Shown here one piece after another: positions 11,583 through 51,679 of a DNA stretch of 64,000 nt. The position numbers were made by a program, and so were the translations under genes. Within the stretch, counting starts at the first letter, position 1; every line of letters starts with the position of its first letter. Below the pieces are notes generated by a model. It had not been told where the DNA came from, did not search any database, and saw only the letters and a list, made by a program, of their open reading frames with translations. This DNA comes from Haloterrigena gelatinilytica (GTDB lineage: Archaea > Halobacteriota > Halobacteria > Halobacteriales > Natrialbaceae), in contig NZ_JABUQZ010000001.1 of assembly GCF_013342145.1 (NCBI RefSeq), positions 496,001 to 560,000 of the forward strand, in the 5' to 3' direction.

Positions 11583-11712
11583 GGCGCTCGTCAGGCAGTC
11601 AGCGCGACGAAGTCGCGCTGAATATAGCGACGAGCGATAGCTCGTCGGACCATGCGAACGGGTAGTGCGCGGCGCTACGCGCCGCGACTGTCGGGACGGC
11701 TTCGCCGTCCCG
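11570..11712 (+). repeat. Array of five perfect hairpins spanning the spt5 stop codon
   Basis: Five inverted repeats occur in 143 bases. They are 11570-11593 (10-bp stem, loop TAAG containing the stop), 11599-11621 (10 bp, loop GAA), 11628-11647 (8 bp, loop GATA), 11668-11686 (8 bp, loop TAC) and 11692-11712 (9 bp, loop TTC). All stems pair perfectly and use different sequences, so this is repeated structure rather than repeated sequence. A role in RNA 3'-end formation or stability is inferred from position. Confidence 0.8.
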
Positions 11713-11946
11713 CAGCGCCCGTGAGCAGACAGCGACGAACGCGTTTCTCCGCGGTTTCACGTCCTCGGCTACCGGTGCGTCCGACCGTTGGCGTCGCGGA
11801 CACCGGATGCGGTCCGCGTCGTCGCTCGAGCAGTCTCCGTCTCTGACGGCCCGGCTATTTACCACATAGCATCTATACGAAAATAAATATTATACGTGCG
11901 TTCGTGAAACGATCTTCCGTTCGCATCGCAGTGCGAACGATCGACG
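11713..11946. other. Rest of the spt5-to-hydrolase gap; no gene seen
   Basis: After the hairpin array, no convincing reading frame was seen on either strand. The last part (about 11857-11900) turns AT-rich and probably holds the promoter of the following gene. Confidence 0.5.
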
Positions 11947-48675: not shown

Positions 48676-50610
48676 ATGAGTACTGTAGAGCAGCAACTCG
48701 ACGATCTGAAAGCAGAGATCACGAGCGAGTTACCGAGCGATATCTCGGTCTCCTCGGTGAAATACGAAGGCCCCGAAGTGGTGGTCTACACGCGCGATCC
48801 GAAGAAGTTCGCCCAACAGGGCGATCTCATCCGGCAACTCGCGAGCAAACTTCGCAAGCGCATCACCGTCCGCCCCGACCCGAGCGTTCTCTCGCGACCC
48901 GAAGAGGCCCGCGAGGAGATCATGAGCGTCATCCCCGAAGAGGCCGGCGTCACGGACCTCGACTTCCACGCCGACACCGGCGAGGTCGTCATCGAGGCCG
49001 AAAAGCCGGGCATGGTCATCGGCCGCCACGGCTCGACGCTCCGCGAGATCACCAAAAACGTCGGCTGGACGCCCGAGGTCGTCCGCACGCCGCCGATCGA
49101 ATCCTCGACCGTCTCGAACGTCCGTAGCTTCCTCAAACAGGAACGCGACGAGCGACGGGACATCTTAGAGAAGGTCGGCCGACAGATCCACCGCGAGGAG
49201 ATGTCCGACGACGAGTACGTCCGCATCACGACGCTGGGCTGCTGTCGCGAGGTCGGCCGGGCCTCGTTCATCCTCTCGACGCCCGAAACCCGGATCCTCA
49301 TCGACTGCGGCGACAAACCCGGCGCCGAGGGCGAAGTGCCCTACCTCCACGCGCCGGAGGCGCTCGGCGCCGGTCCGCAGACGATCGACGCCGTCGTCCT
49401 CACCCACGCCCACCTCGACCACTCCGCGCTGATCCCGCTCCTGTTTAAGTACGGCTACGACGGGCCGATCTACTGCACGGAACCCACCCGGGACCTGATG
49501 GGCCTGTTGACGCTGGACTACCTGGACGTCGCCGCCAAGGAGGGACGCGCCCCGCCGTACGAGTCCGAGCAGGTCCGCGAGGCGATCAAACACTGCATCC
49601 CGCTCGAGTACGGCGACGTCACGGACATCGCGCCGGACGTCAAACTCACCTTCCACAACGCCGGCCACATCCTCGGCTCGGCCGTCTCGCACTTCCACAT
49701 CGGCGACGGCCTCTACAACGTCGCGTTCTCCGGCGACATCCACTACGAGGACACCCGCCTGTTCAACGGCGCGACGAACGACTTCCCGCGCGTCGAGACG
49801 CTGGTGATGGAGTCGACCTACGGCGGTCGCAACGACTATCAGACCGACCAGGAGGACTCCGAGGAGAAGCTCAAGGAGGTCATCAACGAGACCTACGAGG
49901 AGGGCGGCAAGGTGCTCATCCCGGCGTTCGCCGTCGGTCGCTCCCAGGAGATCATGCTCGTCCTGGAGGAGGCGATGCGCGAGGGCGAGATCCCCTCGAT
50001 GCCCGTCCACTTGGACGGGATGATCTGGGAGGCGACGGCCATCCACACCACGTATCCCGAGTACCTGCGGGACGACCTCCGGGACCGCATCTTCCACGAG
50101 GACGAGAACCCCTTCCTCGCCGACGAGTTCAACCACATCGACGGCGGCGAGGAGGAGCGCCAGGACGTCGCCGACGGCGAGCCCTGTATCATCCTCTCGA
50201 CGTCCGGGATGGTCACCGGCGGTCCGATCATGTCCTGGCTCTCCCACATCGGCCCCGACCCGGACTCGACGATGGTCTTCGTCGGCTACCAGGCCCAGGG
50301 GACTCTCGGGCGGCGCATCCAGAACGGCTGGGACGAGATTCCGACCAGCGAAGTCGGCGCCATGGGCAACGGCGGCGGCCGCGGCACCCTCGATCTGAAC
50401 GTCGACGTCGAGACCGTCGACGGCTTCTCCGGCCACGCCGACCGCGCCGGCCTCGAGAACTTCGTCAAGACGATGAACCCGCGCCCCGAAAAGGTGCTCT
50501 GCGTCCACGGCGACGAGCGGTCGACGCAGGACCTCTCCTCGGCGCTGTACCACAACTACGACATGCGGACGTTCGCGCCGAAGAACCTCGAGACCTTCCG
50601 CTTCCTGTAG
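48676..50610 (+). CDS. fttA: Transcription termination factor FttA (aCPSF1), KH-MBL-beta-CASP nuclease
   Basis: This is a 644-residue RNase. The N-terminal KH-type region has GMVIGRHGSTLREI (about residues 112-126). The metallo-beta-lactamase core shows HAHLDHS (244-250) and the later zinc histidines in NAGHILGSAVSHFH. The beta-CASP part includes ESTYGGRN, IPAFAVGRSQE, TSGMVTGGP and HGDERST. FttA cleaves nascent RNA and releases RNA polymerase, stimulated by Spt4/Spt5. Three perfect hairpins start 11 bases after its stop. Confidence 0.95.
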   Translation: MSTVEQQLDDLKAEITSELPSDISVSSVKYEGPEVVVYTRDPKKFAQQGDLIRQLASKLRKRITVRPDPSVLSRPEEAREEIMSVIPEEAGVTDLDFHADTGEVVIEAEKPGMVIGRHGSTLREITKNVGWTPEVVRTPPIESSTVSNVRSFLKQERDERRDILEKVGRQIHREEMSDDEYVRITTLGCCREVGRASFILSTPETRILIDCGDKPGAEGEVPYLHAPEALGAGPQTIDAVVLTHAHLDHSALIPLLFKYGYDGPIYCTEPTRDLMGLLTLDYLDVAAKEGRAPPYESEQVREAIKHCIPLEYGDVTDIAPDVKLTFHNAGHILGSAVSHFHIGDGLYNVAFSGDIHYEDTRLFNGATNDFPRVETLVMESTYGGRNDYQTDQEDSEEKLKEVINETYEEGGKVLIPAFAVGRSQEIMLVLEEAMREGEIPSMPVHLDGMIWEATAIHTTYPEYLRDDLRDRIFHEDENPFLADEFNHIDGGEEERQDVADGEPCIILSTSGMVTGGPIMSWLSHIGPDPDSTMVFVGYQAQGTLGRRIQNGWDEIPTSEVGAMGNGGGRGTLDLNVDVETVDGFSGHADRAGLENFVKTMNPRPEKVLCVHGDERSTQDLSSALYHNYDMRTFAPKNLETFRFL

Positions 50611-50620
50611 AAAAGCCCTC

Positions 50621-50765
50621 GCGGCCGCTTGGCAGCGGCCGCTCGCCCGTTTCATTTCCGCCAGGGACACAGGGCGCGGCGCGCGGATCCGCGCGCCGCG
50701 CGGTCAGCCTGCCCTTCCCCGCGACTCGAGCGCTCGCCTCGAACAAACGGCGAGCGCTCGAGTCG
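50621..50765 (+). repeat. Three perfect palindromes behind fttA
   Basis: The elements are 50621-50642 (9-bp stem, loop TGGC), 50674-50701 (a 28-base uninterrupted palindrome centred on GGATCC) and 50722-50765 (17-bp perfect stem, 10-base loop tcgaacaaac). They are compatible with 3'-end processing or termination structures; mechanism is inferred. Confidence 0.8.
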
Positions 50766-50875
50766 GCCGCCGCACTGCTACCGGCTGTTCTCGCGAGATT
50801 TCGGCGGCTGTTTCGGTTCAGTAACTCTCCTCGAGTCCGTCCGAATCGCAAGAAATCGTGAGCCGCGGGAGTCGA

Positions 50876-51679
50876 TCAGGAGAGCTGTTTCGAGAGCCAC
50901 TCGAGGTTCGTCGCGACGGTCGCCGCGACGATCGCGATGATCGAGATCAGGATGAGGAACGTCGAGACGACGCTCACCATCGGATCGAGCGATTGGCGCA
51001 GCGCCGTCCACGCGACGACCGGAATGGTCTCCGTGCTGTGACTCGAGAGGAACAGCGCCATCACGAACTCCTGAAGGCTGACGATGAAGGCGAGCAGGCC
51101 GCCGACGAAGATCCCGTGTTTGACGTTCGGGAGGACGGCGTAGACGAACGACTGGATCGGGCCGGCGCCGAGGTCCCGCGCGGCGTCGAGCAGCTGCCAG
51201 TCGAACCGGCTGAACACCGACCGCATCACGAAGTAGACGAGCGGCGTCGCCCACAGCGTGTGCGCGAGGATGATGCTCAGGAACGAGGCGTTCAGCCCGG
51301 CTCTGACGAAGTAGACGCGCATCGAGATCCCGAGGATGATCGGCGGGATCAGCAGCGGGACGAGGACGAGCGGCGCGAGCAGCTGTCCGGTCCGGCCGTC
51401 GTCGAGTTCGTGGCCGAAGGCCGCCGTGACGCCGAGAGTCGTCGCGACGACGGTCGTTCCGGCGCCCACGAGGAGGCTGTTGTCGAACGCCGACAGCCAG
51501 CGCGTCTCCTCGAAGAACGCCCGGTAGTGGACCAGCGAGTAGTTCTCCGGCGGGAAGAGCAGCTGTCCGGACGCCTCGAAGGAGGTCGCGACGACCACCG
51601 CGAGGGGCAACAGCATGAACGTCAGGATCGCCAGGTAGCCAGCGCGGAACGCGACGTTCTCGACGGTCTCTCTATGCAT
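50876..51679 (-). CDS. ABC transporter permease, PotC type
   Basis: This is a 267-residue permease of a spermidine/putrescine-type importer. It has six helices and the EAA-like loop DAARDLGAGPIQSFVYAVLP. The ATG at 51679 overlaps the last 8 bases of the upstream permease gene, tight coupling typical of transporter subunits. An upstream GTG at 51691 is less likely. It is the last gene of the four-gene leftward operon. Confidence 0.88.
   Translation of the reverse strand: MHRETVENVAFRAGYLAILTFMLLPLAVVVATSFEASGQLLFPPENYSLVHYRAFFEETRWLSAFDNSLLVGAGTTVVATTLGVTAAFGHELDDGRTGQLLAPLVLVPLLIPPIILGISMRVYFVRAGLNASFLSIILAHTLWATPLVYFVMRSVFSRFDWQLLDAARDLGAGPIQSFVYAVLPNVKHGIFVGGLLAFIVSLQEFVMALFLSSHSTETIPVVAWTALRQSLDPMVSVVSTFLILISIIAIVAATVATNLEWLSKQLS

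Follow-up and report, generated by a model that had tools for sequence, protein, structure and literature searches.

Three hairpins follow the gene of the termination factor FttA in Haloterrigena gelatinilytica, and the question is whether they belong to the termination machinery in particular. The original prediction placed them directly behind fttA in the window, that is, the whole 64,000-nucleotide stretch of DNA analysed here, with the first hairpin 11 bases past the stop codon. All three are found there, and P1 starts at that distance. The upstream gene has the KH, metallo-beta-lactamase and beta-CASP domains of FttA (Pfam). The hairpins and the four sequence boxes that frame them are arranged as follows.

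48676..50610, + strand: fttA (aCPSF1), whose stop codon the element abuts (Pfam KH_TffA 1.4e-32, Beta-Casp, RMMBL, Lactamase_B)
50611..50777, + strand: whole three-hairpin element (match of model R2 at 50612-50777, 160 bits)
50612..50620, + strand: box 1, AAAGCCCTC (all C and T positions invariant among 72 copies)
50621..50642, strand not applicable: hairpin P1, perfect, 9 bp, tetraloop TGGC
50643..50665, + strand: box 2, TCGCCCGTTTCATTTCCGCCAGG
50674..50701, strand not applicable: hairpin P2, here an uninterrupted 28-nt palindrome
50702..50721, + strand: box 3, GGTCAGCCTGCCCTTCCCCG
50722..50765, strand not applicable: hairpin P3, perfect, 17 bp, 10-nt loop
50765..50777, + strand: box 4, GGCCGCCGCACTG (consensus GGCCAC)
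50876..51679, - strand: convergent right-hand neighbour, ABC-transporter permease (Pfam BPD_transp_1 4.1e-13)

Perfect hairpins of 8 bp or more were counted in a genome sample of 464 kb (~10%), consisting of the window and 20 evenly spread 20-kb stretches, with genes called by our own codon-model gene caller and dinucleotide shuffles as the background. Convergent gaps in this sample contain 1.27 such hairpins per kb, against 0.34 per kb in the shuffles. The 265-nt fttA gap is expected to contain about 0.09 hairpins by chance, and hairpins of 12 bp or more are essentially absent from the shuffles. The fttA hairpins are thus real and far above chance expectation. When the 335 intergenic regions of the sample are ranked by total arm length, spt5 comes first and fttA second, and the two genes are hairpin outliers, as had been proposed. 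Although fttA and spt5 lead the sample, the arrays at L007:15375-15857 (divergent) and L015:4704-5119 (convergent) of the same genome are nearly as large. Dense hairpin arrays in the sample are rare, but not unique. Among 80 named haloarchaeal loci, three or more hairpins occur in 8 of 43 Natrialbaceae fttA gaps versus 2 of 616 control gaps.

The two leading arrays are unrelated. The spt5 array lies as follows.

11583..11946, strand not applicable: hairpin array downstream of spt5, not a member of the element

It consists of five perfect hairpins of 8-10 bp and has the largest total in the sample. However, three members of the genus have lost it or retain far less of it, whereas four of five keep the fttA hairpins. 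Its sequence is unrelated to the fttA hairpins, and model R2 has no match in it. The suggestion that the fttA hairpins echo the spt5 array therefore fails, and kinship of the two was rejected as unsupported.

Side-by-side comparison of the fttA 3' regions yields the framework AAAGCCCTCG-P1-CTCGCCCTTTCAATGTCCGCCAGG-P2-GGTCGGCCTGCCCTCCCCCGTG-P3-CGGCCAC. The element as a whole is about 165 nt long and has three stems and four strictly conserved boxes, with the consensus (G)AAAGCCCTCG-P1(loop TGGC)-CTCGCCCTTTTCATNTCC..CCAGG-P2-GCCTGCCCTYCCCCG-P3-GGCCAC. The copy in the window has boxes 1-4, P1 and P3 in this order (R2), which is the criterion of the family. In relatives, P2 is a stem of 11 bp closed by a 6-nt loop, and some species have extra hairpins between box 2 and P2. 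In 72 copies, the 5' module has the form AAAG-CC-C-TC-G-N8-TGGC-N8-C-TC-G-CC-CTTT. AAAG of box 1 pairs with CTTT of box 2 in relatives, and this pairing is supported by the variants TAAG/CTTA; in the fttA copy considered here the G-C pair is replaced by G.G. An A-tract and a T-tract flank P1 on both strands.

The sequence of the 9-bp P1 stem is nearly free, yet 79-97% of the pairs at each position are Watson-Crick. In 12 fttA-linked sequences, both sides vary in 7 of 27 pairs, and 95.7% of the cells are paired; the pairing is lost when the partners are slid. In the R2 model, where P1 and P3 are paired, 19 of 22 pairs vary on both sides (70 such cells versus 24.4 in shuffles). The 3' region of fttA is under strong structural constraint. 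Wobble pairs are rare in P1 (G.T in 4 and A.C in 9 of 504 cells, 0.8-1.8%), compared to 11.1% G.U in tRNA stems from the same DNA; this comparison is made for P1 alone, as the P3 hairpins had been picked for best pairing and their wobble counts were left out. P1 pairing may be read at the DNA level. A coding function is unlikely, as the lengths of stems and inserts vary irrespective of three. P2 as a site for a dimeric protein was rejected as well, as its stem covaries and its centre varies without remaining palindromic.

In the fttA 3' regions L027, L030, L049-L053 and L079, a two-hairpin insert between box 2 and P2, ACCGGAGCGCC...GGT followed by CGGAAATCTTCGATTTCCG, comes and goes among close relatives, as if modules were gained and lost. 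In the fttA element L134 of genome G036, P2 is replaced by tandem repeats of about 17 nt of the CACGCGAGTCTG type.

The Natrialbaceae were searched with a model of P2, box 3 and P3, and wider searches used the full-length model R2; copies were counted by model, as an exact-match pattern is too strict for this purpose. High-scoring matches were found in 29 of 121 Natrialbaceae genomes, once per genome and always directly behind fttA; no other host in this family has a strong match. Since this single strong copy retains both its pairing and its boxes across about 14 genera, it is selected in cis. Four further families also have the element behind fttA. In genus g53 of family f9, the P2-box 3-P3 model matches several places per genome, adjoining other genes, and R2 matches 13-31 times in each of five g53 genomes versus once in the Haloterrigena gelatinilytica genome. 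In the class-wide search, R2 found the element in 84 of 391 genomes and 34 of 86 genera, with the number of matches per genome to be read as at least the value given. Three pattern matches in viral contigs are due to chance, having neither a paired stem nor boxes 2-4, and carriage by viruses was rejected.

The left-hand neighbours form 38 clusters, that is, about 38 kinds of host gene. Besides fttA, they include genes for glutamate dehydrogenase, a flavodoxin/FNR-like reductase, EF-1beta, gyrB, asparaginase, a PhoU-like protein, L10e and others. The most widely shared host is fttA, common to families f1, f3, f7, f8 and f9. Glutamate dehydrogenase is a host in f7-f9, the FNR-like reductase in f3 and f9, and a small MSLDDL protein in f4 and f9. 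Of 30 element-bearing genomes checked, those with the element behind fttA are all six of g53, three of the four of f7, G203 (f3) and G155 (f8); the tested genomes of f2, f4 and f6 do not have it there. It follows fttA in Halostella, and a diverged 5' module is found behind fttA in Haladaptatus. Sites common to several families suggest old loci, many of which have since been lost.

Placement at gene edges is exact. In a set of 95 copies, 67 of the 73 with a left neighbour on the + strand begin between -21 and +8 nt from its stop codon, and 16 of the 20 with a left neighbour on the - strand begin 37-48 nt upstream of its start codon. Without the fttA copies the numbers are 61 of 68 and 22 of 28, respectively; some of the copies are orthologous, so that not all counts are independent. 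The position at 37-48 nt would be just outside the expected leaderless archaeal promoter of the leftward gene. The fttA copy in the window obeys the same rule, its left end being 1-2 nt past the stop codon. The right end of the element is placed more loosely than the left. All four gene orientations are represented, and convergent gaps are enriched (42 of 95 non-fttA copies versus 68 of 335 gaps, p 1e-7, the background being the Haloterrigena gelatinilytica genome only). Ordinary hairpins of that genome start within 14 nt of stop codons in 10 of 41 cases, without the precision of the element.

G.U bias counts are too low to assign the strand of action, and the type of mismatch was used instead. 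Within the P1 stem, T.C/C.T mismatches number 31 and G.A mismatches 2 (p 1e-7). Most are tandem and fall in CTCG/CTCG, which reads CGAG/CGAG on the bottom strand, a motif that forms tandem sheared G.A pairs. In 63 of 63 copies the bottom strand has the more stable fold, since it turns the constant CTCG/CTCG mismatches into tandem G.A pairs; the fold of the + strand is also stable (z -5.4). This suggests that the functional strand is the bottom one, antisense to the left gene.

This base-paired element with its many hosts is tentatively proposed to be a directional, strand-biased boundary device at gene edges, a terminator or insulator; the proposal comes from sequence comparison, and we hold it at somewhat short of an even chance. 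Transcription entering at the right end would pass P3 and P2 and stop at P1 and the adjoining CUUU(C) tract at the left end. This would be the last point before the transcript becomes antisense to the left gene or enters the promoter of a leftward gene. The active hairpin could be RNA or extruded DNA. At fttA, the element would prevent antisense read-through of the convergent ABC-permease transcript into fttA, and it may additionally end the fttA mRNA. One such boundary would accommodate both the placement in all four orientations and the favoured strand, and the A-tract and T-tract around P1 fit a hairpin terminator working both ways. Hairpins do terminate transcription in vivo in Haloferax volcanii, where the available text of one study gives 59% of transcripts for one tested case (PMC7237163).

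However, some observations count against the boundary. Firstly, the near-absence of G.U on both strands is unusual for RNA and points to pairing at the DNA level or to palindrome correction. Secondly, the T-tract is short (3-4 T) and gives way to pairing (TAAG/CTTA), and a scan of the window scored no classical intrinsic terminator, that is, a stem followed by a T-run of 5 or more. Thirdly, a 165-nt framework with conserved boxes 2-4 is superfluous for a terminator. Finally, no gene transcript enters the element in divergent gaps. A bolder form of the proposal is unlikely as a whole. It would make the element a new class of directional gene-boundary element, ancestral in Halobacteriales and with fttA as its most persistent site, whose bottom strand folds via the repeated CGAG/CGAG tandem sheared G.A motifs and blocks or ends transcription at the DNA level, precisely where stop codons and the edges of promoters lie.

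The main rival is a non-autonomous mobile hairpin, REP/BIME- or PATE-like, moved as folded single-stranded DNA and settling between genes, so that conservation would reflect recognition by a transposase and copying rather than host function. We consider it somewhat unlikely. It would explain the range of 1 to 31 matches per genome, the near-identical copies behind unrelated genes of one genome (96% over 172 nt, G289) and the observed relics and losses (L054, G005), and the near-absence of wobble fits a DNA hairpin. The known PATEs of Haloquadratum have palindromes near their ends (PMC3119063). However, the Y1 transposase gene is absent from the two richest genomes, and PF01797 is missing from G289, G221, G244 and G000, and in other genomes it does not overlap a copy among the matches listed. 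Mobility driven by a Y1 transposase is thus unsupported. Further, different families share host sites (fttA, gdh, FNR-like), the single fttA copy is intact across about 14 genera, for which copying alone is an insufficient explanation, and placement within 5 nt of stop codons would be an unusual target. Gene conversion could account for the concerted evolution.

An RNA element in the 3' UTR of the left gene, protecting or processing the mRNA or bound by an RNA-binding protein, is a less probable alternative still, and we regard it as distinctly doubtful. In about 70% of copies the left gene does run in the sense direction and the element begins right at its stop codon, the boxes and the constant loop are conserved, and the + strand fold is stable too. 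On the other hand, 28 of 99 non-fttA copies are antisense to a leftward left gene, with 22 of those just upstream of its promoter; G.U pairs are nearly absent, and the tandem mismatches favour the opposite strand.

It is improbable that the element is a putative DNA-topology site at the ends of active genes, bound by gyrase or a nucleoid protein or extruded as a cruciform, as proposed for the BIMEs of E. coli. The wobble-free hairpins, the enrichment in convergent gaps and the presence of gyrB and other housekeeping genes among the hosts agree with such a role, but it leaves the one-sided placement rule and the asymmetry of the boxes unexplained.

Least of all do we credit the feedback loop of the original prediction, in which FttA and Spt5 control their own 3' ends through the hairpins behind fttA and spt5: autoregulation of a termination factor is plausible, and fttA is the most widely shared host across families and the sole strong site in Natrialbaceae, but in other clades about 38 further kinds of gene have the same element beside them, the array behind spt5 is neither related nor conserved, and FttA prefers U-rich RNA (PMC11616081; PMC8716108), whereas the element is C-rich, with UUU(U) in box 2 only. 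With a length of 3-4 T, and with changes that track its A-tract partner (TAAG/CTTA), this sole conserved T-run would be a poor U-tract site for FttA. The sequence only weakly motivates a feedback through FttA, and neither this nor a private loop of the termination machinery has to be invoked.

The boundary element proposed here resembles several known systems. Like REP and BIME sequences, it is dispersed, extragenic, hairpin-based and near gene 3' ends, with a conserved motif beside a stem. However, it has a free stem sequence with strict pairing, three hairpins with four boxes over about 165 nt and exact abutment to stop codons; it lacks the REP hallmark, a conserved stem sequence with a GTAG/CGTC tag, as its stem is free and its boxes differ, and the richest genomes have no RAYT transposase. 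Structure is conserved above sequence and one strand is folded also in the attC sites of integrons. The element has no link to an integrase and no gene cassettes, and its P1 tetraloop and boxes are different. PATEs and IS605-type ends are likewise non-coding repeats of haloarchaea, which have palindromes close to their ends but lack terminal inverted repeats (PMC3119063). From these the element differs in its orthologous host positions across families and in having no tnpA or tnpB inside, a distinction drawn from the definition of PATEs. Bidirectional intrinsic terminators share the AAAG...CTTT around P1 and the many copies in convergent gaps, but the element has a short T-tract, a constant CC/CC and TC/CT internal loop, and additional hairpins and boxes. 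Termination sites of Haloferax volcanii likewise have hairpins upstream of RNA 3' ends; compared by description only, they have no shared sequence framework in the available text (PMC7237163).

Rfam gave nothing near the gathering score in the window, only sub-threshold chance matches, and six other copy-bearing loci had no match. A search of open-access text with the box sequences returned only unrelated primer-like matches. The three-hairpin haloarchaeal element is deeply conserved and apparently undescribed so far. Gene boundaries and the separation of convergent and antisense transcription are poorly known in archaea, and few conserved archaeal cis-elements have been recognised. The element offers a sharp consensus, strong covariation and nucleotide-precise placement, and species with up to 31 matches are suited to genome-wide tests. 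It also calls for caution, as hairpins that seemed special to one gene are a family spread over many genes.

Some loci deserve mention. Second FttA-like proteins, 67-72% identical, are encoded at L031 (G001) and by second matches in G151, G163, G207 and G311; the second gene of G001 has no hairpins behind it. At L129 (G029:C3:1915076), a gene for an acyl-CoA dehydrogenase is followed by a long string of hairpins and then by an end similar to box 3 and P3; the same genome also has an fttA copy. In the window, the bottom strand of box 3 (50702-50721) is G-rich, CGGGGAAGGGCAGGC, and is a possible G-quadruplex partner for GGG runs near P1. In Halobiforma haloterrestris (L060:11935-12350), an unrelated insertion after box 2 seems to split the fttA element, with a CCTCGCCGTAAACGGCGAGG hairpin at the junction.
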